A stretch of DNA of 64,000 bases, from positions 62,001 through 126,000 of the forward strand of contig NZ_PPXD01000008.1 of NCBI RefSeq assembly GCF_002909375.1, given 5' to 3'. The stretch comes from Cryobacterium zongtaii. GTDB taxonomy: Bacteria; Actinomycetota; Actinomycetes; Actinomycetales; Microbacteriaceae. Position 1 is the stretch's first letter; each line of letters starts with the position of its first letter. This document shows positions 9,191 to 19,720 of the stretch, in pieces. The translations under genes were made by a program, and so were the position numbers. Below the pieces are notes generated by a model, which was not told the origin of the DNA, searched no databases, and saw only the letters and a program-made list of their open reading frames with translations.

Positions 9191-10681
9191 TCAGTGCGCC
9201 ATCATCGGCGCGTCGTGGGTGTCGGTGACCGACGGGGCCGGCTTGCGGATGAAGAACGCCAGCGGGATCGCGAAGAGCGAGATGATCGCGCCGTAGAGGA
9301 AGGCGCTCTGGGTGCCCGCCGCCGTCGCGGCGACCTCGCCGGCACCGTTGGCCATCTGCGTCGCCGCGGTCGAGGACATCACCGTGACGAACAGGGCCGT
9401 GCCCGCGGCTCCGGCCAACTGCTGGGCGGTGCCGACGACGGCGCTACCGTGCGAGTACAGCTTGGGCTTGAGGGAGGCGAGCGCCGAGGTGAACAGCGGA
9501 GTGAACAGGAACGCCAAGCCGAAGCTCAGTGTCACGTGGGCCACGAGCACCCACCAGACCGGCGTCGTGGCGGTGAGCATGGTGAGGAACCAGAACGCGG
9601 CGCTGACGATGATCGACCCCGGCACGAGCAGGACGGTGGGGCCGAACCTGTCGTAGAACCGGCCGACGAACGGGGCGAGCAGGCCCATCGTGAGACCGCC
9701 GGGCAGCAGCAACAGACCGGTGGTCAGCGCATCCAGGCCCAGCACGGTCTGCATGTAGATCGGCAGCAGGATCAGGGTGCCGAACAGGGCCATCATGCTC
9801 ACGGCGAGCATCACGATGGCGAAGCTGAACGTGCGCGAGACGAAGGTACGCAGGTCGAGCAGGGCCCGGTCGGTGCGCTGCAGCGTGAGCTGGCGCCAGA
9901 CGAACAGGGCGATCGCCAGCACGCCGATGGCCAGTGGCACCAGGCCGGCGGCGGCGTTGCCTGTGGCGGATTCGCCGAGGTTGCTCAGCCCGTAAACCAG
10001 GCCGCCGAAGCCGAAAGCCGAGAGGATCACCGAGACGACGTCGAGGGGCACCGCGGTGGGAGTGGTCACGTTCTTGATGCGTGCGGCGCCGAGCGCCAGG
10101 GAGCCGAGGGCGATCGGCAACACGAGGATGAACATCCAGCGCCAGTCGAGCACGCTCAGGATGAGGCCGGAGATCGTGGGGCCGATCGCCGGGGCGACCG
10201 AGATGACAATGGAGATGTTGCCCATGGTCTTGCCGCGGGCGGCCGGTGCCACCAGGGTCATCACGGTGGTCATCAGCAGCGGCATCATGATGGCGGTGCC
10301 CATGGCCTGCACCACCCGGCCCACGATGAGCACCTCGAAGCCCGGTGCGATGGCGGCGATGAGGGTGCCCGTGCTGAACAGGGTCATCGCGGCGAGGAAG
10401 ACCGGGCGGGTGTTGAACCGCTGCAGCAGGAAACCGGTGATCGGGATCACCACGGCCATGGTGAGCATGAACGCGGTCGTCAGCCACTGGGCGGCGCCGG
10501 CCGTGATGTTCAGGTCCTTCATCAGGTGCGGCAGCGCCACACCCATGATGGTCTCGTTGAGGATGACCACGAACGCGGACACCAGCAGCAGCGAGATGAC
10601 GAGCTTGGTGCCGGCGGCATCCGGGGCATTGCCGGTCGGCGCGGCGGGCGCGGGGGCAGTGGTGACGGCGGAGTCGGTCAT
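9191..10681 (-). CDS. DHA2-family MFS multidrug exporter
   Basis: The 496-residue membrane protein has about 14 hydrophobic segments, the DHA2 (EmrB/QacA) arrangement of proton-driven drug exporters. The motif NETIMGVALPHLMKDL in the first helix and the segment QWLTTAFMLTMAVVIPITGFL are characteristic; the loop FLLQRFNTRPVFL follows, and motif C-like GPTISGLIL is in helix 5. It would extrude cationic or lipophilic drugs. The start is the ATG at 10681 after AGGACCCC. No regulator is adjacent; the divergent gene is the vitamin transporter pnuC. Confidence 0.88.
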   Translation of the reverse strand: MTDSAVTTAPAPAAPTGNAPDAAGTKLVISLLLVSAFVVILNETIMGVALPHLMKDLNITAGAAQWLTTAFMLTMAVVIPITGFLLQRFNTRPVFLAAMTLFSTGTLIAAIAPGFEVLIVGRVVQAMGTAIMMPLLMTTVMTLVAPAARGKTMGNISIVISVAPAIGPTISGLILSVLDWRWMFILVLPIALGSLALGAARIKNVTTPTAVPLDVVSVILSAFGFGGLVYGLSNLGESATGNAAAGLVPLAIGVLAIALFVWRQLTLQRTDRALLDLRTFVSRTFSFAIVMLAVSMMALFGTLILLPIYMQTVLGLDALTTGLLLLPGGLTMGLLAPFVGRFYDRFGPTVLLVPGSIIVSAAFWFLTMLTATTPVWWVLVAHVTLSFGLAFLFTPLFTSALASLKPKLYSHGSAVVGTAQQLAGAAGTALFVTVMSSTAATQMANGAGEVAATAAGTQSAFLYGAIISLFAIPLAFFIRKPAPSVTDTHDAPMMAH

Positions 10682-10751
10682 CGGGGTCCTAACGGAACGG
10701 GCTCAGGTGCGACCCCGGTATGAGGTACCCATGGTTCAACCAGAATGCGCC

Positions 10752-10824
10752 GGTTATGTTCCCGAATCGGACAATTCCGTCCGGCGCACCGGCACCATTT
10801 GTCCGCACGGGCAACAGTTGCCGG
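10752..10824. repeat. intergenic palindrome, family B copy 1
   Basis: This stretch holds two inverted half-units. The left includes GTTCCCGAATCGGACAATT, the right ATTTGTCCGCACGGGCAAC, and the centre has CCGG-CGCA-CCGG. Read from the other strand the right half is CAACTGTTGCCCGTGCGGAC, nearly the same as copies at 32097, 39611 and 57863. It fills most of the gap between the divergent drug exporter and pnuC. No open frame crosses it. Confidence 0.7.
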
Positions 10825-10829
10825 TCTTT

Positions 10830-10835
10830 TAGACT
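10830..10835 (+). promoter_or_regulatory. -10 box of pnuC, probably leaderless
   Basis: TAGACT ends seven bases before the ATG of pnuC, so transcription should start at or within a base or two of the start codon. The same spacing is seen before many genes in this window. GGGGAG lies between the box and the ATG but would be at the very 5' end of the transcript. Confidence 0.55.
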
Positions 10836-10842
10836 GGGGAGC

Positions 10843-11502
10843 ATGGGGGAATGGCTGATCGACAACTGGACCGAGGTTTTGGGATTCGGAACGGGGGCCG
10901 CGTGCGTGTGGTTGGCCGCGCGCCGCAACATCTGGACCTTCCCGCTCGGCATCGCGAACAACCTGGTCTTCATCGTGCTGTTCTTCGGCGCCGCGCTCTA
11001 CGCCGACCTCGGCCTGCAGATCGTCTACCTGGTGCTCGGGGTGATGGGCTGGCTTGGCTGGTCCCGGCACCGGGCCGCCGACGACCGCGCGCTGATCGGC
11101 CGGATGCCCAGGCAAGCCATCCTGCCGCTGGTCGCCGCCGCGCTGGCCGGCACCGCGATCATCGCCTACGCCCTGCACTCCTACACCGACTCCACCACCG
11201 AGATCGCGGATGCCGCCACCACCTCGGTGAGCCTGGTCGCGCAGTACATGCTCAACCGGCGCTGGCTGGAGAACTGGTTCGTCTGGATCGCCGTCGACGT
11301 GGCCTATGTGGGCCTGTTCCTCTATAAGGGGCTGAACATCACCGCCGCGCTCTACCTGCTCTTCATCGGCCTGTGCGTCTGGGGCCTTCGCGGCTGGATG
11401 CGGGCCCGCACAGATCAGACGGCGAGCGACTCCGGGGCGGCCGGCGCCTCGCCCCACCAACCGGTGCCAGCCGGCACGACGGGTGCCCGAGCCGGTGCCT
11501 GA
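10843..11502 (+). CDS. pnuC: nicotinamide riboside transporter PnuC
   Basis: PnuC imports nicotinamide riboside by facilitated diffusion. The 219-residue protein has seven or so membrane helices and the family motifs WxFPLGIANN (here IWTFPLGIANNLVF) and YGWxxW-like VMGWLGWSRH, plus the C-terminal WVAVDVxYxGLFxYKGL pattern (WIAVDVAYVGLFLYKGL). The ATG at 10843 is preceded by a -10 box and GGGGAG; an upstream frame to 10720 is inside the repeat and was rejected. The gene overlaps nadR by 20 bases, and the kinase it encodes traps the imported vitamin. Confidence 0.93.
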   Translation: MGEWLIDNWTEVLGFGTGAACVWLAARRNIWTFPLGIANNLVFIVLFFGAALYADLGLQIVYLVLGVMGWLGWSRHRAADDRALIGRMPRQAILPLVAAALAGTAIIAYALHSYTDSTTEIADAATTSVSLVAQYMLNRRWLENWFVWIAVDVAYVGLFLYKGLNITAALYLLFIGLCVWGLRGWMRARTDQTASDSGAAGASPHQPVPAGTTGARAGA

Positions 11503-12598
11503 CCCGCTGCCGGCGGCTGACCCGGTGCCGGTGGCGGCGACCCGATTCGGGCACGGCCTGGTGCTCGGCAAGTTCTACCCTCTGCACGCCGGGCACTCGG
11601 CCCTGATCCGCACGGCCCTCAGTCGCTGTGACAGGGTCACCGTGCAACTGTTCGGGGCCAGCGTGGAATCCATCCCGCTGAGCGTGCGCGAGGAGTGGCT
11701 GCGCGAAGAGCACCCCACCGCGCACGTCGTGAGCGCCATCGACGACGCTCCGGTGGACTTCGACTCCGCCGACGCCTGGGACGAGCACATGGTGTTGATC
11801 CGGGCGCTGCTGGACGCACCGGTCGACGCCGTGTTCTCCAGTGACCCGTACGGCGCCGAACTAGCCGCCCGCCTGGGCGCCGCGTGGGTGCAGGTCGACC
11901 CCGGCCGGCGGCACACCCCGGTCTCCGGCACCGCGATCCGAGCGGATGTGCCGGGACACTGGTGGGCGCTGGCCCCCGCCGTGCGCGCCTGGCTGACCCC
12001 GCGCGTGGTGGTGCTCGGTGCCGAATCCACCGGCTCCACCACCCTCGCCGAAGCCCTCGCCGACCACTACGACACCGCGTGGGTGCCGGAGTACGGCCGC
12101 GAGCACAGCGAAACCCGGGTGGGCGGCCTGGACACCCCGTGGCGTAGTGACGAGTTCGACGTCATCGTGGACCGTCAGATCGGCTGGGAGAACCAGGCCC
12201 TGCGCCGGGTGCCGCGGCCGCTGCTCATCTGCGACACCGACGTGCTGGCCACCACCCTCTGGCACGAACGCTACGTGGGACCGACCCCGGCGGGGCTCGT
12301 GGCGCGCGCCGCCGCGCATCCGCCCGCGCTGTACCTGCTCACCGGGGACGAGATCCCGTTCGTGCAGGACGGCCTGCGCGACGGCGAGCACATCCGGCAC
12401 GCCATGCAGCACCGGTTTCGCCAGACGCTGGCCGGGCAGGACGTGCCGTGGCTGGAGGTGACCGGGTCGGTGCCGGAGCGCCTGGCGCAGGCGGCCGTTG
12501 CCATCGACCGGATGCTCGCCGGAGTCTTCGACTTCGCGCTGCCCCTGGAACAGCAGGCCGCGCTCGAGGCCGCCGTCGCCGCCGGGCCCGCCCGATAG
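11483..12598 (+). CDS. nadR: NadR-like NMN adenylyltransferase / ribosylnicotinamide kinase
   Basis: The 371-residue protein joins two catalytic domains. Residues 26-170 form the nicotinamide mononucleotide adenylyltransferase with the GKFYPLHAGH nucleotide-binding motif (HAGH at 35-38) and VSGTAIR at 147-153. Residues 174-355 resemble the ribosylnicotinamide kinase that phosphorylates the vitamin delivered by PnuC. The kinase P-loop reads GAESTGSTT (179-187): the usual lysine of GxxxxGK[ST] is replaced by Ser185. An E. coli-like HTH domain is absent, so it is an enzyme rather than a repressor. Start GTG 11483 lies inside pnuC; GTG 11495 is an alternative. Confidence 0.88.
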   Translation: MPEPVPDPLPAADPVPVAATRFGHGLVLGKFYPLHAGHSALIRTALSRCDRVTVQLFGASVESIPLSVREEWLREEHPTAHVVSAIDDAPVDFDSADAWDEHMVLIRALLDAPVDAVFSSDPYGAELAARLGAAWVQVDPGRRHTPVSGTAIRADVPGHWWALAPAVRAWLTPRVVVLGAESTGSTTLAEALADHYDTAWVPEYGREHSETRVGGLDTPWRSDEFDVIVDRQIGWENQALRRVPRPLLICDTDVLATTLWHERYVGPTPAGLVARAAAHPPALYLLTGDEIPFVQDGLRDGEHIRHAMQHRFRQTLAGQDVPWLEVTGSVPERLAQAAVAIDRMLAGVFDFALPLEQQAALEAAVAAGPAR

Positions 12599-12601
12599 GC
12601 T
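12596..12601 (+). promoter_or_regulatory. -10 box of the MoxR/vWA operon, leaderless
   Basis: TAGGCT overlaps the end of nadR and is seven bases before the ATG at 12609. This gives the five-gene operon its own promoter even though it is only 10 bp from nadR. There is no ribosome site before the ATG (GAAAACC), which fits leaderless translation. Confidence 0.6.
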
Positions 12602-12608
12602 GAAAACC

Positions 12609-14186
12609 ATGGCGCTGGGGAATCGTTGGAACAAGGTATCCGAATCACCGACGCGCGCTAACGCCGCCACACTGGCCGAGGAGCTGACCGCGGAGGACCT
12701 CTTCACCGAGGCGCCGGCGGTGGTGGACACGGCGCTGGACGAGAAGCTGCGCCAGGCCTACTTCTGGTTGGTGAACCGGGCCGTGATCTCGCCGTTCTAC
12801 GACGTCGAATTCTCCACCGGCTCCCCGGTCACCTTCGAACTCGGCGACGCCGGCGCCGAACTGCACCTGCCCACCGACCAGTCCTACTCCTCGAACGTGC
12901 TGCTGCCGCTGCTCACCTTCGCGGTGGGCGGCAAGTGCCTGCTCGTGGGCGGTCCCGGGCGTGGCAAGACCACCCTGGCCATCCTGATGGGTGTGCTCGC
13001 CGGGTCGAGCGCCCGGGAGGTGCGCCGCAACGTGCAACAGGGCCAGCCTCAGGTCACGGTGAGCGACCTGGTCGGGATGCCGCTGCCGCGCGACCTCGTC
13101 ACCGCCGGGAGCCTGGCCGAGATCGAGATCGCCTGGCGCGGCTGGCTCAGCCAGCCGGTGAAGATCATCGACGAGTACAACCGCATCCCCACCAAGACCC
13201 AGTCGGCGCTGCTCACGATGGTGGCCGAGGGCTACGTGGAAAGCCACGACCAGATGCACTCCACCGCGCCGGAATCCGGGGTGGAGAGCTGGTTCTTCAC
13301 CGCCAACGACGACGCCGGCGGCGGCACCTTCCCGGTGATCCAGGCGCTCCGCGACCGGATGGACGTGACCGTCGCCGCGCAGGGTTTCAACAACCGGTTC
13401 TTCGACGAACTCGTCGCCCGCGTCGAGGCCGGCGAACGGCCGGAGGACCACCTGCCGCCCGAGCTCATCTTCGACGCAGAAGAACAGCGCCTGCTCGAGG
13501 CGGCCATCCGGGCCGTGCCACTGCCCGGTGCGGTGCGTCGCCAGCTGGAGTTTTTCGCCAGCCACTTCGAATTCGTGCAGCAGGGCGGGCGCCGCTTCGA
13601 ATACCGCACCAAGGACACCGTGCGCACCGGCGGCGGCGAGGTGGCCGAGGTGATCGAGGCCAACTCCGGCGCCGACCTGCAGGTGGACCTCGGCTCGCAG
13701 ACCAGCAACAGCCTCTCGGTGCGGTCGCTGCAGACCCTCATCCGCTACGCCAAGGCGATGGCCTACTTTCGCGGCCGGCCCGTGGTGGGCCTGGACGACC
13801 TAGCCGCCGTGCTGCCCTTCGCCCTGCGCGGCAAACTACTGCCCAACGAACTGCACCCCCGCTTCGACGTGGGTGCCGACCGGGAGCTGGCCACCGACTC
13901 GATCAGCTGGCTCGCCGACCTCTTCACCGAGTCCCGCCGGCAGTTCACCGCCCTCGGCCTCGGCGGCAACGACCCGATCAGCGACGCCCTCGACCTGTTC
14001 AACCAGGGCCTGGATGCAGTCAGCTCCGCCGAGGCCGCGCAGCGCCTCACCGGCATTGAATCCCTGATCAGCGGCATCGCCAAGCAGGGCAAGCTCTACG
14101 GTCGGCACTTCGACGACCTGCTCGCCCTCAAATACCTGCACCAGCGCTACACGAACTACGTCAGCTGGTTGGGGTTCAGCGGGTGA
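12609..14186 (+). CDS. MoxR-family AAA+ ATPase
   Basis: MoxR ATPases remodel or activate partner proteins, usually together with a von Willebrand A (vWA) protein. This 525-residue member has Walker A GGPGRGKT (114-121), Walker B KIIDEYNR (185-192), a sensor-1 region WFFTANDD and the arginine-containing ALRDRMD segment. A long C-terminal part (from about residue 290) includes an insertion with LQVDLGSQTSNSLSVRSLQTLIRYAKA, the usual lid region. It is first in a five-gene operon whose genes overlap by 4-8 bases. It is longer than typical MoxR (about 320-350 residues) and closer to the large MoxR groups associated with metallopeptidase/vWA proteins. The specific subfamily is not certain. Confidence 0.88.
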   Translation: MALGNRWNKVSESPTRANAATLAEELTAEDLFTEAPAVVDTALDEKLRQAYFWLVNRAVISPFYDVEFSTGSPVTFELGDAGAELHLPTDQSYSSNVLLPLLTFAVGGKCLLVGGPGRGKTTLAILMGVLAGSSAREVRRNVQQGQPQVTVSDLVGMPLPRDLVTAGSLAEIEIAWRGWLSQPVKIIDEYNRIPTKTQSALLTMVAEGYVESHDQMHSTAPESGVESWFFTANDDAGGGTFPVIQALRDRMDVTVAAQGFNNRFFDELVARVEAGERPEDHLPPELIFDAEEQRLLEAAIRAVPLPGAVRRQLEFFASHFEFVQQGGRRFEYRTKDTVRTGGGEVAEVIEANSGADLQVDLGSQTSNSLSVRSLQTLIRYAKAMAYFRGRPVVGLDDLAAVLPFALRGKLLPNELHPRFDVGADRELATDSISWLADLFTESRRQFTALGLGGNDPISDALDLFNQGLDAVSSAEAAQRLTGIESLISGIAKQGKLYGRHFDDLLALKYLHQRYTNYVSWLGFSG

Positions 14187-14923
14187 CCCAGCGCCCCCGG
14201 CACCTCGTGAACGATTCGCTGGAGCTCACCGACGAGGCCCTGCCGGAGACCACGGTCGACCTCGAGCTCTCGGCGACCCGCATTCAGGAGCGGCACGGCG
14301 AGGCGGCCGGCGCCCGCTACCGCCACTTCATCGGCCGGGCCGTGGCGGCAGCGCCCGACGCCGACCGGGACGACCTGCTCACCCTCGCCGCCCTCGCTGC
14401 CTGGCGCTCGGGTGCGCCGGCGTTCCGAACGGATGCGCTGCGTCGCCTCGACCTGGCCCTCGCCGCCGGCCGCACCGGCCTGCCCGCCCTCGCCGCGGCG
14501 CTGGGCCTGGGTGAGGGCGGGGTGGCCCCGTTCGCGGCGTTGCAACTGAATTCCCGGTTCGGTTGGCCCGGCCTGCACGCTCCCGGAGAACTCCTCGCCG
14601 TGATCGGCGGTTTCCGCGGCCTCTACGGCCCGTGGCTGGCGCCCCCGGTGGCGGCGCTGCCCGGCGACCGGCCGGGCAGCTTCCTGATCCGCACGGGCAG
14701 TGCTGCCACGGCCGAGGACTGGCTGCTCACCGTGGATGTCTTCGGGCACACCCTCGTGCGGCTCGCGACCGACGAGCAGGGGAATGTCGACGCTGCGGCC
14801 GACGCACGGTGGTCTGCAGCGGGCGATACCGCGCAGGGGCTCGCCGAGACTGGAGCGGCCGGCGCCGTGCTGACCGTGCGCGCCTACACCGCACAGCTGT
14901 GGACCCCGGAGAAGAGCCCGTGA
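14183..14923 (+). CDS. unknown protein of the MoxR/vWA operon
   Basis: The 246-residue product is not recognised. It starts at GTG 14183, overlapping the MoxR stop (GTGA), and ends overlapping the next gene. The first 130 residues are mainly helical, with two hydrophobic Ala/Leu-rich helices (LLTLAALAAWRSGAPAF, ALAAAGRTGLPALAAALG) and no signal peptide. The last 100 residues appear as a beta-rich domain (SFLIRTGSAA, WLLTVDVFGHTLVRLAT, AVLTVRAYTAQLW). The position between the ATPase and the vWA protein suggests an adaptor or substrate-recognition subunit. It has no cysteine, metal or nucleotide motif. Confidence 0.75.
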   Translation: MTQRPRHLVNDSLELTDEALPETTVDLELSATRIQERHGEAAGARYRHFIGRAVAAAPDADRDDLLTLAALAAWRSGAPAFRTDALRRLDLALAAGRTGLPALAAALGLGEGGVAPFAALQLNSRFGWPGLHAPGELLAVIGGFRGLYGPWLAPPVAALPGDRPGSFLIRTGSAATAEDWLLTVDVFGHTLVRLATDEQGNVDAAADARWSAAGDTAQGLAETGAAGAVLTVRAYTAQLWTPEKSP

Positions 14924-16905
14924 CGGCTGCGCCGCTCACCCCCGAGCAGCGCAGCGCCTGGCAGAGCGCCCAGGCGCTCTGGGGCGTCGAACTCCACGAC
15001 CCCGAGCTCGCGCCGGACGCGAAGGAGGCGTCCTTCGCCTGGTTCAGCTTCCCGCCCCAGGTGGCCTTCGACCTTCCGCAGGCCGAGCGGCTGGGCGTCG
15101 GGGCGTTTCTGGAGAGCATCTTCGCGCACGAGATCGGCCACCACGCCCTTTCTCCCTCGACCCGGCTGACGAGCCTGAAAATCCGGCACCAGATCGCGCG
15201 GGCGCTCGCGGCCACCGATGCCGCGCGCATCCCGGATGTCGCCGACCAGGTTCACAAACTCTCGAACCTGTGGTCGGACATGCTCATCAACGTGCGGGTG
15301 GCCGAGCTGCAACGGCGGCGGGACGGCGAAGCCACGCCGCCGGAGATGGTGCGGATGTGGGCGGTGCTGGGCGGGAACGACAGCGCCGATCGGCTCTGGT
15401 GGGTGCTCCTGCGGGCCTACGAGATTCTGTGGGTGCTCGCGGCCGGGGCACTCTGCTCGGCCGAGCCACCGGCCGTCCCGATAGACCCTGACGAGGTGGT
15501 GCGGCAGCGGATATCGAAGATCACCGACGCGTGGCAGAAGAAGAACCGGCTCAATGAGGTCTTGGCCACCAAAGACCCGAAAAAGCTCGCCGAGTTGCAG
15601 CTGTCGGAGCGGACCCAGGAGCTGGCCGCCGAAGTGCAGCGCGAGTTCGACGCCCTGGCGCTCACCGACCCGCGGCTCGACGCGGTGCTGCTGGCCGAGA
15701 CCGTGCGCACATTCGGTGACGATCCGGTGAGCGGGGCGCTGCGCTTCGGGATGCTGCTGGCACCGTACCTGGTGGCCCAGGGGCCCACCAGGCACCGCCC
15801 CGGGTTGGTGGTTCACGGGGGAGGCTGCGACGGCGAGTCCGGAGCAACCCCGGCGACCGCGGGTGAGCTGGTCGCGGTGCTGGGGGATGCGCGCCTACGG
15901 GAAGACCCGGCGCATCCGGCGGTGGCCAAGGCACGCGGCCTCACGACGGCCAGCCCCGGCGCCGGCACGGTGCCGGGCGCCCCGGACTCCCCGGGTGACG
16001 GCCCGCCCACCGCGCCCACCGGCCAGGGCTACGGCCTGGCCCGGACGCTGGAGCTCTACCGCGACAGCGGCGCCAACGCTGTCATCGCCGCCTGGTATCA
16101 GACCCGGGCGCGCAGCTACGTTAAGCCGCTGCTGCAGCGCACTCCGGATGCGCCCCCGGCCGACGCCGAGATCCCGGGTCCCCTGGCAGCGTGGGAGCTC
16201 GGCGACGACCTCGCCGACATCGACTGGGCCGCATCCATGGCGAGAAGCCCCACGGTCGTGCCCGGGGTGACCACCCGGCAGCGGGAATACCTGCCCGACG
16301 CGCCGCCCGTGGCCACCGCGAGCCTCGATCTGGACCTGTACATCGACTCCTCGGGGTCGATGGTGAGTCCCGCCAACGAGTCGCCGGCCGTCCTGGCCGG
16401 CAGCATCCTCATCCTCTCGGTGCTGCGCGGCGGCGGCCGGGTGCGGGTGACCTCATTCTCGGCGGCCGGACAGGTCGCCGGTGGCGAGAGATTCACCCGT
16501 GACCGCCTCGAGGCGCTGCGTGACCTCACCACCTACTTCGGCTGGGGCACGGTCTTCCCGCTCGACCTGTACGGGAGCCGGTATCGCGGCCTGGGCCGCA
16601 CCAGCGCGAGTGTGCGCCGGCACGTGGTGGTGCTTTCCGACGAGGGACTGCTCTCGATGTTCGGCGCAGGGCAGCCAGAGTACGCCGACGTCGCCGCCCG
16701 GGTGCGCCGCGGGCTCGACACGGCCACCCTGATCCTGCAGGATCCCCGCCGCTCCGTCGCCGAACCTGCCGCTCTGGCCGGCTATGACGTCGAGTACATC
16801 CAGCGGATGGACGATGCACCGGCCGCCTGCGCCCGGCTCGCCCGGCGACTGACGGAGAGCGATCCGCGCCGTGCCGCCCGAACACCAGGAGGATTCCGTG
16901 GCTGA
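14920..16905 (+). CDS. zinc-metallopeptidase-like / vWA-domain protein
   Basis: The 661-residue protein combines two modules. Near residues 66-80 is FAHEIGHHALS with a complete HExxH zinc motif (His70, Glu71, His74), so the N-terminal part looks like a metallopeptidase. The C-terminal third is a von Willebrand A domain whose MIDAS motif DSSGS (Asp476, Ser478, Ser480) begins the strand LDLDLYIDSSGSM; a second acidic site occurs in VVVLSDEG. A Gly/Pro-rich linker (about residues 340-370) separates them. This layout resembles DUF2201-type proteins that pair with MoxR ATPases. The GTG start overlaps the previous stop. No signal peptide, so it acts in the cytosol. Substrate unknown. Confidence 0.85.
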   Translation: MTAAPLTPEQRSAWQSAQALWGVELHDPELAPDAKEASFAWFSFPPQVAFDLPQAERLGVGAFLESIFAHEIGHHALSPSTRLTSLKIRHQIARALAATDAARIPDVADQVHKLSNLWSDMLINVRVAELQRRRDGEATPPEMVRMWAVLGGNDSADRLWWVLLRAYEILWVLAAGALCSAEPPAVPIDPDEVVRQRISKITDAWQKKNRLNEVLATKDPKKLAELQLSERTQELAAEVQREFDALALTDPRLDAVLLAETVRTFGDDPVSGALRFGMLLAPYLVAQGPTRHRPGLVVHGGGCDGESGATPATAGELVAVLGDARLREDPAHPAVAKARGLTTASPGAGTVPGAPDSPGDGPPTAPTGQGYGLARTLELYRDSGANAVIAAWYQTRARSYVKPLLQRTPDAPPADAEIPGPLAAWELGDDLADIDWAASMARSPTVVPGVTTRQREYLPDAPPVATASLDLDLYIDSSGSMVSPANESPAVLAGSILILSVLRGGGRVRVTSFSAAGQVAGGERFTRDRLEALRDLTTYFGWGTVFPLDLYGSRYRGLGRTSASVRRHVVVLSDEGLLSMFGAGQPEYADVAARVRRGLDTATLILQDPRRSVAEPAALAGYDVEYIQRMDDAPAACARLARRLTESDPRRAARTPGGFRG

Positions 16906-17728
16906 GAGACCCGCGCCGTTCTGGCGACGGCTGACCAACTCCGCCGGGCTCAGGGAGCCCGACCGGGGGGAGCTGGCGACGAACGCCATCCCGTTCTCTC
17001 CTCCCACCGCGCGGGTGCCGCGCCCGGCGGCCGACGCGGAGCCAGCCGGCGCCACGCCGGATGCAGTTGACTCGGAGGTGCTTCTCGCGGTGTGGTTCGC
17101 GCGTGAGCAGGACGACATGCTCGTCTGGCGCACCTGCCTGCCCGGGGCGAGTACCGCCGAGATCGCCACCCGCCTGTCCTTGGTTCCGGCGTCCTTCCTC
17201 GCCGATGACGTGGCTATCCTCCCGCTCGCCGAGAATATTCTTGAAATGGAATACGGCGCCGTCGGATCAACGCCGCCGGACCGGAGGGGGCAGGAGGTCC
17301 TCCGGATTGTGGACCAGGTGCGTGCCACCGGGTCGGCCGCCGCCCGCCGGGGCGCGGCCCTGGTGCTGTGGCTCTGGGCCAGCGAGGACCTGAACGGTCC
17401 GTTGTCGGTGCCCTTGAGCCCGGTTTGGTACGGCCGCGCCATGGCCGCGCTCTCGTTTCGGTTGGCGGCGGTGGTCGACCCGGCCGAGTGGGTGCGCACG
17501 GCCGACCGGCGCGACGAAGCAGCCCGCACCTTCCTGCTCTGGTCCGGCCATCTGCCGGCCGGCGAGGACGAGGCCACCGCCAGGTCGATCCTCGCCATGC
17601 GCGACTCCCTGCAGCAGAACGCGGCGCTGGCCCAGACCATGGCCGAACACGAACACCGGCTCCAGGTGACCAAACAGCTGCAGGAGGCCAGGGCCCGCGA
17701 GGCCGCCGCCCGGTACTCGAATGAGTAA
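16898..17728 (+). CDS. unknown protein of the MoxR/vWA operon
   Basis: The 276-residue product is not recognised. The start GTG 16898 is set by a strong AGGAGG five bases upstream; it lies 8 bases inside the vWA gene, and GTG 16871 is less likely. The first 60 residues are Pro/Ala-rich and probably disordered. A helical core follows (SEVLLAVWFAREQDDMLVWRTCLP, AAARRGAALVLWLWASEDL). The last 40 residues (QNAALAQTMAEHEHRLQ...) form a predicted coiled coil, which could mediate assembly with the other operon products. It overlaps the ligase gene by eight bases. Confidence 0.75.
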   Translation: MAERPAPFWRRLTNSAGLREPDRGELATNAIPFSPPTARVPRPAADAEPAGATPDAVDSEVLLAVWFAREQDDMLVWRTCLPGASTAEIATRLSLVPASFLADDVAILPLAENILEMEYGAVGSTPPDRRGQEVLRIVDQVRATGSAAARRGAALVLWLWASEDLNGPLSVPLSPVWYGRAMAALSFRLAAVVDPAEWVRTADRRDEAARTFLLWSGHLPAGEDEATARSILAMRDSLQQNAALAQTMAEHEHRLQVTKQLQEARAREAAARYSNE

Positions 17729-19106
17729 CCCGCCGGGGCCGGCCATGGCAGTGCCCGACCCGGACGACCCGCTGGCGCTGGCCGAATACGCCCCGGGCGG
17801 CACCGTCGCGCTCACCGACGCCGAACGGTGGCCCACCCTCGATGTGGCCGGCGCGGCGCGTCTGGATGCCGTGCAGCGGCATCCGCTCGCCCCGGCCTGG
17901 GTACACCGGACCGGTGACAGGCTCACCGCCGACGGAGTCGCCAGGGCCCAGGCGGCGCTGCCCGTCACCGGTTGGCTGGCCGAGCACCTCGCCATCGCTC
18001 GCCGGCTGCCCGCCTACCGCAGGGTCGCCGACACCCTCGGTGAGCTGCGCACCTGGCCCACCGTGACCCGCGACGACCTGCTCGAGAACGTGTCGGCGTT
18101 CGTGCCGCTGGATGCCGACCTCGATCGGATGATCGAGGGCTCCAGTTCCGGCACCACCGGGCGCGCGCTACAGATCCCCGACGACATCGAGGAGGTCGCT
18201 CGCAGCTTCCACCTGCTGGTGACCCTGGTGGCCGAGCAGGGTATCGACTGGCGGCCCGACCCGGCACGGATGGCCCTGGCCTACCTGGTGCACCAGCGCC
18301 AGGCGTTCACGTACACGTCCTCGATCAGCAGTTTCGGTCAGTCCACCATGGCCAGGCTCAACCTGCATCCTTCGCAGTGGCCGGCGCCCGGGCAGCGCAC
18401 CGGGTTCCTGCTTGACCAGCAGCCGCAGGTGATCACCGGCAACCCCACCAGCCTGGCGGAGCTGCTGCACCCCGACCTTGTGGCGGGCCTGCGGCCGCTC
18501 GCGCTGTTCAGCGGCGCGATGGCGCTCAGTCTCGCCCTCCGCCGCGACCTGGAGGCGGCATACGGCTGCCCGGTGATTGACGTCTACGGGTTGCACGAGA
18601 CCCGGCCGATCGCCGCCAGCACTGACGGGGGACCCTTCGTGATCCTCGATCGGCGGGTGCACGTGGAGGTGCTCGACGGTTCCGGCCATCCGGTGGCACC
18701 CGGGGAGCGCGGCGAGATCGTGGTGACCGCGGGGGAGAACCCGCTGTTGCCGCTGGTGCGGTACCGTACCGGGGACTTCGGCCGGCTGGTCGACGTGGCC
18801 GGCCGGCCCGCACTGGCCGACCTGGAGGGCCGGGAGGCCACCCGGTTTCTGGCGTTGGACGGTTCCCTGGTGCCCTGCGTCGACCTCACCCAGCAGTTGC
18901 AGGCCGGCGGGGCGCGCGGCTGGGCTGTGCGGCAGGGCGTCGACGGCAGCGTGACCGCCACTGTGGTGGGCGGTGCAACCGGGCAGATCGGTACGGCGCT
19001 CCGACGGCTGCTGGCACAGCCGGTGACCGTGACCGCGGTGCCGACCCTGCTCGACCTCGGCGAGGGCAAACCGCGCCGCTACGAGTCGGAGGCGCCGGGC
19101 ACCTAG
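17721..19106 (+). CDS. PaaK-like adenylate-forming enzyme (ANL superfamily)
   Basis: The 461-residue protein has the core motifs of acyl-adenylate ligases related to phenylacetate-CoA ligase and coenzyme F390 synthetase. These are the phosphate-binding loop SSSGTTGRA (141-149), the YGLHET aromatic/adenine motif (from about 289), the ribose-binding RYRTGDFG, and a C-terminal LGEGKPRRY with Lys450 in the place of the A10 catalytic lysine. It would activate a carboxylic acid with ATP and pass it to CoA, an amine or a protein. The N-terminal 110 residues are not typical of PaaK. Being last in an operon with MoxR and vWA genes, with no phenylacetate pathway nearby, argues against simple phenylacetate catabolism. 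Confidence 0.8.
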   Translation: MSNPPGPAMAVPDPDDPLALAEYAPGGTVALTDAERWPTLDVAGAARLDAVQRHPLAPAWVHRTGDRLTADGVARAQAALPVTGWLAEHLAIARRLPAYRRVADTLGELRTWPTVTRDDLLENVSAFVPLDADLDRMIEGSSSGTTGRALQIPDDIEEVARSFHLLVTLVAEQGIDWRPDPARMALAYLVHQRQAFTYTSSISSFGQSTMARLNLHPSQWPAPGQRTGFLLDQQPQVITGNPTSLAELLHPDLVAGLRPLALFSGAMALSLALRRDLEAAYGCPVIDVYGLHETRPIAASTDGGPFVILDRRVHVEVLDGSGHPVAPGERGEIVVTAGENPLLPLVRYRTGDFGRLVDVAGRPALADLEGREATRFLALDGSLVPCVDLTQQLQAGGARGWAVRQGVDGSVTATVVGGATGQIGTALRRLLAQPVTVTAVPTLLDLGEGKPRRYESEAPGT

Positions 19107-19119
19107 CTCACCGTTGCCG

Positions 19120-19171
19120 CAGGGATGCGATTGGCAGTGTCTGCACCATTTGTGGCAGTCAGTTCCCGCAG
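19120..19171. repeat. intergenic repeat, family C copy
   Basis: The gap after the adenylate-forming enzyme contains GCACCATTTGTGGCAGTCAG, close to GGGACCATTTGCGGCAAGTC at 56942. The left part repeats GGCAGT and TTGCCGCAGGGAT. It is the only other copy I see of the family at 56942-57037, so the relationship is tentative. Confidence 0.35.
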
Positions 19172-19201
19172 CCGGCCGGCCGGTTTCCCTAGGCTGTGAA
19201 G

Positions 19202-19720
19202 ATGCCGATCACCACCGACACCAAAGACTGGACCTGGGTGCTCGAGCGCCCCTGCCTCGAGTGCGGATTCTCCGCCGCCGAGCTTCGTTACGACGACGTA
19301 CCCGATCTTGTGCGCCAGAACGCGGCCGCCTGGGCACCCGTGCTCGACCGACCGGATGTTGCGGCGCGGCCCGACGACACCACCTGGTCGGCGCTGGAAT
19401 ACGCGGCCCACGTGCGTGACGTGTTCCGCATCTTCGACCTGCGGCTGGGCCTGATCCGCGCCGAGGACGACCCGCTCTTCGCGAACTGGGACCAGGACGC
19501 CACCGCGGCGGCCGAGCGCTACAACGAGCAGGATCCACGGGTCGTGGCGGCGGAACTGGCCGCGGCCGCGGCATCCGTTGCCGACGCCTTCGCGGCCGTG
19601 CCGCCCGCCGACCGGCAGCGCACCGGCCGCCGCAGCGACGGCGCCCGCTTCACAGTGACCACGCTGGCCCAGTACTTCATCCACGACCCGACGCACCACC
19701 TGCATGACGTATCCCGCTGA
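19202..19720 (+). CDS. DinB-like / mycothiol-dependent isomerase-fold protein
   Basis: The 172-residue protein is a four-helix DinB-type bundle. Metal-ligand histidines are visible at LEYAAHVRDV and in the C-terminal FIHDPTHHLHDV, the usual positions for the family. DinB-like proteins in actinobacteria include mycothiol S-transferases, but the substrate here is unknown. ATG 19202 is six bases after the -10 box TAGGCT (leaderless); a GTG six bases upstream is an alternative. It stands alone between the adenylating enzyme and the antiterminator gene. Confidence 0.8.
   Translation: MPITTDTKDWTWVLERPCLECGFSAAELRYDDVPDLVRQNAAAWAPVLDRPDVAARPDDTTWSALEYAAHVRDVFRIFDLRLGLIRAEDDPLFANWDQDATAAAERYNEQDPRVVAAELAAAAASVADAFAAVPPADRQRTGRRSDGARFTVTTLAQYFIHDPTHHLHDVSR

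Follow-up and report, generated by a model that had tools for sequence, protein, structure and literature searches.

The window analysed here, 64,000 nucleotides (contig NZ_PPXD01000008.1, positions 62,001–126,000) from the 4.05 Mb genome of Cryobacterium zongtaii, carries on its + strand five overlapping genes, A to E (12609–19106, counted from the first letter of the window), that recur as a conserved block across bacterial phyla. Immediately upstream lie pnuC and nadR, two genes of nicotinamide riboside (NR) salvage, and NadR and the five-gene cassette co-occur across genomes. The link of the cassette to NR and nicotinamide adenine dinucleotide (NAD) salvage is well supported, and the pnuC–nadR connection, overlooked in an earlier interpretation made from the letters of the window alone (the sequence-only reading), is the strongest functional clue. 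With a probability of roughly one in three, A–E would be an ATP-driven machine of the MoxR/von Willebrand factor A (vWA) type together with its adenylating enzyme, operating in a pathway that needs NR salvage.

The five genes and their conservation

Gene A (12609–14186) encodes a MoxR-type AAA+ ATPase of 525 residues, in which AAA_3 (PF07726, 30.7 bits against a cut-off of 27) and AAA_lid_2 (PF17863, 28.3 against 22.7) both exceed their thresholds. Its Walker A motif GGPGRGKT is found in every copy tabulated, and the Walker B motif DEYNR in all except that of locus L047; the N-terminus (window 12609–12660) shows a (K/R)(V/I/L)SxSPT-like motif that is also seen in some, not all, copies from Actinobacteria, planctomycetes, Desulfobacterales and Riflebacteria. 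B (14183–14923) is an orphan of 246 residues with a GGFRGxGG motif in its C-terminal half, C (14920–16905; 661 residues) joins a metallopeptidase-like N-terminal part to a vWA domain, D (16898–17728) is an orphan helical protein of 276 residues terminating in glutamate (RYSNE-stop), and E (17721–19106; 461 residues) is a PaaK-like adenylate-forming enzyme. The A/B, B/C, C/D and D/E overlaps measure 4, 4, 8 and 8 bases, just as the sequence-only reading described them. For B, C and D no family in Pfam, NCBIfam, PADLOC or PHROGs scored above its cut-off. AlphaFold2 predicts B (mean confidence, pLDDT, 90.6) to be helical in its N-terminal half and beta in its C-terminal half, and D (pLDDT 83.2) to be helical, with a last helix of 38 residues (237–274) that bears the tail at its tip and is compatible with the coiled coil formerly assigned to it; in Foldseek, neither model matches a PDB fold at E ≤ 0.001.

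The motifs HEIGHH, NLWSDMLIN and DSSGSM are all located in C, including the two (HEIGHH and DSSGS) singled out before, and the window copy holds every residue of a metal-ion-dependent adhesion site (MIDAS; DxSxS...T...D), identifying it as a vWA/MIDAS protein. In an alignment of 61 copies, whole and partial, with counts taken over the copies holding each region, HExxH and D120 are present in 59/59, DxSxS in 61/61 and the last MIDAS aspartate in 59/59. The Pfam vWA models score under their cut-off for the window protein and above it only for a sister copy, L075, and a search of PDB sequences with C yielded, apart from designed proteins, a single weak match, to a sporozoite surface protein. The earlier label of C as DUF2201-like found no footing in Pfam, where neither the window C nor that of L166 matches DUF2201 at E ≤ 1. 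Its resemblance to DUF2201 metallopeptidase/vWA proteins is presumably confined to motifs.

E exceeds the AMP-binding cut-off (PF00501, 34.7 bits against 29.9) and contains the ANL motifs SSSGTTG, YGLHE and YRTGD together with K450; the SSSGTTGRA stretch and the late catalytic lysine (in LGEGKPRRY) previously attributed to it are thus both in place. Among relatives these adenylation motifs are conserved, in agreement with the ligase assignment: across a 12-row alignment the P-loop-like stretch is kept, E293 and YRTGD are invariant, and K450 occurs in 90% or more. E is a putative ATP-dependent activator of a carboxylate. It shares adenylation motifs with PaaK/DVU_1553-type ligases but falls far under the curated cut-offs, scoring 42.1 bits against 646.3 for TIGR02155 (PaaK), which places it outside PaaK, and 73 against 300 for NF045666.

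When 84,980 species genomes were scanned with an alignment of A, 36 loci were obtained, and profile searches of their frames matched all five genes in 31, among them L041, in which E is cut by the contig end, and L023, in which the order is rearranged. The incomplete loci lie on short contigs (L038, L040, L043), on a cut contig with a fused A/B frame (L047), or in a genome where E is found away from the other cassette genes (L046). The 36 loci come from Actinomycetota, Planctomycetota, Desulfobacterales and Riflebacteria, with Cryobacterium, Glaciihabitans, Agreia, Frigoribacterium, Schumannella, Mycolicibacterium/Mycobacterium, Nocardioides, Propionicimonas and Microbacterium as the actinobacterial genera; the nearest relatives of the window copy are other Cryobacterium loci, A being 98% identical to that of L013. 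The homologue search thereby bears out the expectation that the five genes stay together, and does so across phyla. Spread is sparse at closer range. Counting the genome of the window, C is present in 4/120 genomes of the family and 3/394 of the class, and the three other family genomes carry A-B-C-D-E in order (in L012 the B match by BLAST is short). Searches with the C alignment gave 18/396 genomes in Actinomycetota (the window genome, G657, and 16 with a divergent C'), 23/246 in Planctomycetota (seven strong, the others weaker or generic vWA), 26/198 in the phylum of G868 (only the centre genome strong) and 8/39 in the phylum of G869, Riflebacteria (seven strong).

The divergent A'-C' pairs of these 16 actinobacterial genomes form a sister subtype, carried by two actinobacterial families (f62, f68); at the seven such loci examined (L074–L079, L082) no B or D match was found, and the E profile gave one weak match of 24 bits. 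A divergent planctomycete subtype, A-C'-D'-E', is seen in L161 (4536–12915) and L158, the former with a B12-binding radical S-adenosylmethionine gene upstream of A. Variation within the main type includes L023 (6728–15371, Mycolicibacterium houstonense), where C precedes A and is followed by a C/D fused frame, pieces of D and E, and a full E, a rearrangement that may be an assembly error or real. In the planctomycete loci L042 (11576–12598) and L040 (1723–2832) an extra gene stands between A and B; its C-terminal half matches the nucleoside 2-deoxyribosyltransferase family PF05014 (above cut-off in L042, under it in L040) and its N-terminal half looks macro-domain-like by eye. Single extra genes inside the cassette encode an AraC-type regulator in L155 (10977–11846) and a flavin-reductase-like protein in L165 (3341–3919), and SLFN_AlbA and ParA-like genes are inserted in L153 (5741–8046).

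Linkage to nicotinamide riboside salvage

The gene run is larger than A–E and begins upstream of position 12609, where the sequence-only reading had started it: nadR (11483–12598) ends 10 bases before A, and pnuC (10720–11502, with a true start that may lie near 10843) overlaps nadR by 20 bases. PnuC is identified as an NR transporter (PF04973, E 4.1e-53, 180.4 bits against a cut-off of 27.3). NadR, a probable nicotinamide mononucleotide (NMN) adenylyltransferase and ribosylnicotinamide kinase, aligns with TIGR01526 over residues 24–328 and both domains at E 5e-52, its 177 bits being under the curated cut-off of 341, and scores above cut-off for AAA_28 (E 1.2e-28). Enterobacterial NadR has a helix-turn-helix domain, unlike the window protein, in which Pfam detects none. 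Both genes are adjacent and full length, which the pair shares with PnuC–NadR salvage as otherwise known; it differs in being tied to a five-gene machine. A single promoter shared by A–E, as once proposed, was not recovered by a sigma-70 consensus scan of 10500–19400, which covered that promoter type and gave none against 0.2 expected.

When frames around 39 loci were clustered, pnuC and nadR emerged as shared neighbours in seven genera, the other clusters being A–E themselves, their antisense shadows and single-linkage mixtures of these; one further cluster, on the minus strand and spread over seven genera, proved to be such a mixture. The pnuC–nadR pair immediately precedes A at 14 of 35 distinct main-type actinobacterial loci with usable flanks (the window, L011, L013–L016, L021, L022, L037, L039, L044, L045, L080 and L081), and the remaining 21, from Agreia, Schumannella and its relative L012, Mycolicibacterium, and L073, have no pnuC–nadR match within 6–10 kb on either side. 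In Riflebacteria nadR adjoins the cassette at all seven strong loci, as a tight run A-B-C-D-E-pnuC-nadR in L166, L168 and L169, as contig-cut versions of it in L167 and L170, as D-pnuC-nadR in L046, and in L165 as nadR, one gene and then E-A-B-C-D, with pnuC not seen. In Desulfobacterales pnuC and nadR come after the second part of E on a separate contig (L197), and the planctomycete L155 has E-pnuC, with pnuC alone. On a 39-row tree of A the arrangement label (upstream, downstream or not linked) changes seven times, indicating that the linkage was lost or re-formed repeatedly while NadR itself was retained.

Indeed, NadR is present, adjacent or not, in 18/18 cassette genomes checked individually and in 0/2 genomes of the same genus that lack C. 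Three wider samples, which share a few genomes with this set, gave a concordant picture. Among 120 genomes of the family, all four with the cassette have NadR, against one full copy and three fragments in the 116 others (Fisher 6e-7 for 4/4 vs 1/116; 8.5e-6 counting fragments, 4/116). In the phylum of G869 (39 genomes) the figures are 7/7 against 1/32 (5e-7), the contig of the single NadR-positive genome without a cassette starting inside nadR. Among 246 Planctomycetota, 6 of 7 strong-C genomes, a set fixed before the NadR search, are NadR-positive (G987 by a partial match) against 15/239 others (1.2e-6). Summed, NadR occurs in 17/18 cassette genomes and 17/387 others (20/387 with fragments). 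The three centre genomes had been selected as cassette carriers; with them left out, the tests give 1.5e-5 for the family (1.3e-4 with fragments), 2.5e-6 for the phylum of G869 and 1.2e-5 for Planctomycetota. Since NadR also exists without the cassette, it is the cassette that depends on NadR rather than the reverse. The genomes of the two divergent planctomycete loci (G992 with L161, G1003 with L158) have no NadR match. One cassette-negative genome of the family (L198, G097:C2) contains apparently decayed pieces of pnuC and nadR.

The five other window neighbours scanned encode a major facilitator superfamily (MFS) transporter, a haloacid dehalogenase-type (HAD) hydrolase, a DinB-like protein, a phosphotransferase system (PTS) permease and a family 1 glycosidase. 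Close matches to the MFS gene adjoin the cassette only in Cryobacterium (L013–L015), the rest being 25–27% identical and about 7 kb or more from A.

A candidate machine and its alternatives

MoxR/vWA pairs are often encoded beside their client. In NorQD, a finger of the vWA partner enters the pore of the MoxR ring, a feature the authors regard as general (PMC13036017, PMC9976466, PMC4660213), and the MIDAS metal of CbbO and NorD, in CbbQO and NorQD, is interpreted as the binding site for an acidic client residue (PMC4660213, PMC9976466, PMC13036017). By analogy with these systems, A would form an AAA+ ring and C, with its metallopeptidase-like domain, would be the vWA partner, B would serve as a scaffold, and D would act as a rod-shaped adaptor with its C-terminal glutamate as the acidic ligand for the metal in the MIDAS of C, the glutamate tip being either a built-in MIDAS ligand or a handle for the client. 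ATP hydrolysis by A would act, by way of C and D, on a client that is most likely E, an enzyme that would activate a carboxylate as an acyl-adenylate. PnuC would import NR and NadR would convert it to NMN and on to NAD, feeding the reaction or its product; the dependence of the cassette on NadR suggests that an NR-derived nucleotide is needed by the reaction or restored after it.

The tail of D is nearly invariant, ending in glutamate in 48/50 complete copies, or 46/48 when L010/L048 and L042/L164 are each counted once; in L023 D forms a fused frame with the beginning of C. Both glutamate codons, GAA and GAG, are used, with TGA, TAG or TAA as the stop, and the glutamate is retained in L046, L165 and L155, whose D does not overlap the following gene. 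Gene overlap constrains one base of this codon (the last where four bases overlap, the first in the window, where eight do) and was rejected as the sole cause of the final glutamate, which persists with TAG and TAA stops and without overlap. The divergent D analogues of L161 and L158 end in WRE and TRE. This near-invariance makes the possible protein modification put forward by the sequence-only reading the more interesting.

Several observations weigh against the machine as outlined. The MIDAS threonine of C is present in 53/61 copies and replaced by tyrosine in 8/61 (L041, L042 and its repeat L164, and L166–L170), the remaining site being intact, and the D proteins of these loci still end in glutamate. 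This combination speaks against a strict pairing of glutamate with MIDAS, and the tail may instead meet E or another partner; the tyrosine copies lowered confidence in the proposed machine and raised that in protein conjugation, discussed below. Conversely, the two D proteins without the glutamate (valine in L080, lysine in L153) stand beside C proteins with intact MIDAS residues; the notion that a glutamate-less D accompanies a broken MIDAS was tested on these and failed. As to NadR, the cassette planctomycete G1018 has no match to it, and of the 15 planctomycetes with NadR and without a strong C one has a weak NadR match and two (G1023, G1098) carry a divergent C'. At L154 and L157, A and C (plus B at L154) occur with no D or E match nearby, in NadR-positive genomes (G987 by its partial match), so A-B-C rather than E may carry the link to NadR. 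Finally, the co-occurrence counts and tests are not corrected for kinship within samples.

The alternative that survives best, in itself unlikely, is an NAD-linked conflict or abortive-infection system, in which an invader or stress would be sensed, NAD consumed or a modifying reaction set off, and PnuC–NadR would refill NAD. The patchy spread of C in family and class fits such a role, as do the nucleoside-deoxyribosyltransferase-like gene inserted in L040 and L042 and the SLFN_AlbA and ParA-like genes of L153, and conflict systems with a MoxR-vWA pair at their core have been predicted (PMC7159879). Against this, PADLOC, run on six proteins, returned only weak P-loop matches, to A (E 0.006 to 0.055, about 20 residues), the five window neighbours are ordinary and free of defence families, and clustering around the 39 loci revealed no recurring variable effector. 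A mobile origin also drew little from the searches: C is unmatched among 50,697 phage records, disfavouring a phage source, and on plasmids E finds only distant ligases (at most 27.7% identity among 15 of 30 matches listed), disfavouring a plasmid one. The conflict role advanced by the sequence-only reading is an unsupported candidate of low probability, and that interpretation as a whole is partly supported.

Lower in probability is a scheme in which the machine controls NR uptake or NAD homeostasis, with PnuC or NadR as the client and E making a regulatory acyl-adenylate. The position of pnuC and nadR as closest neighbours and the near-strict co-occurrence favour it, but PnuC and NadR function without such a machine in other bacteria, the 15/239 planctomycetes keep NadR without a strong C, and a dedicated adenylating enzyme would be left unexplained. 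Lower again, and doubtful, is protein conjugation, in which E would adenylate the C-terminal carboxylate or glutamate of D and join D to a target, with C as the processing or removing peptidase. D and E are usually adjacent, the terminal glutamate of D is nearly invariant, occurs in the divergent analogues of L161 and L158 (loci with E) and is kept where C has lost the MIDAS threonine, and L153, where it is lost, has no E match within its 19.5 kb stretch; known ANL enzymes, however, act on small acids, L080 has E without the glutamate, and no Pup- or ubiquitin-like family was found in D in the four family collections. More doubtful still would be a full new conjugation or tail-signalling system in which E activates the glutamate of D, the MoxR/vWA/metallopeptidase complex loads, remodels or removes D, and an NR-derived nucleotide is substrate, donor or attached group. 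Catabolism of phenylacetate or another aromatic acid, to which the PaaK-type ligases among the PDB sequences matched by the E profile (seven at E ≤ 0.01) might point, is very improbable given the TIGR02155 score and the lack of paa genes in the five window neighbours or as a recurring cluster around relatives, in accord with the sequence-only reading. Within the loci covered, neither of the two outcomes that this reading had named as refuting it appeared.

Known systems and significance

The candidate machine resembles CbbQO and NorQD in setting a MoxR ATPase beside a MIDAS vWA protein and a possible client enzyme, and differs in the N-terminal HEIGHH domain of C, the two extra orphans B and D, an adenylating enzyme as the would-be client, the link to NR salvage, and the tyrosine in part of the MIDAS sites. 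It shares a MoxR protein, a vWA protein and further components with the ternary MoxR-vWA conflict systems that Kaur et al. 2020 describe from Actinobacteria and Planctomycetes (PMC7159879). In contrast to those systems, its gene set is fixed and no VMAP, iSTAND, FtsH or beta-propeller component is recognised: inspection by eye of the N-terminal 100 residues of A shows neither of the VMAP-system motifs WxhapG and PsWRxa, and no family of an iSTAND, FtsH or beta-propeller third component is above cut-off in A–E, B and D being also free of fold matches. The main text of that paper contains neither 'PnuC' nor 'AMP ligase' (PMC7159879). A full-text literature search, whose coverage excludes most subscription journals, returned nothing joining MoxR with PnuC, MoxR with vWA and phenylacetate-CoA ligase, or MoxR with nicotinamide riboside and von Willebrand. 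De Souza and Aravind (2012), writing on NAD-utilising pathways, reportedly predicted a nicotinate-derived compound made with an AMPylating ligase.

On this evidence the cassette belongs with the MoxR/vWA systems, to which it adds components and a metabolic connection that are new. It includes two conserved proteins, B and D, without known family or fold, and the role of the near-invariant glutamate of D is directly testable. MoxR/vWA machines have mostly been described as activating metal or carbon enzymes; a module that spans phyla and couples such a machine to an adenylating enzyme and NR salvage would, if true, open a new branch of NAD biology.

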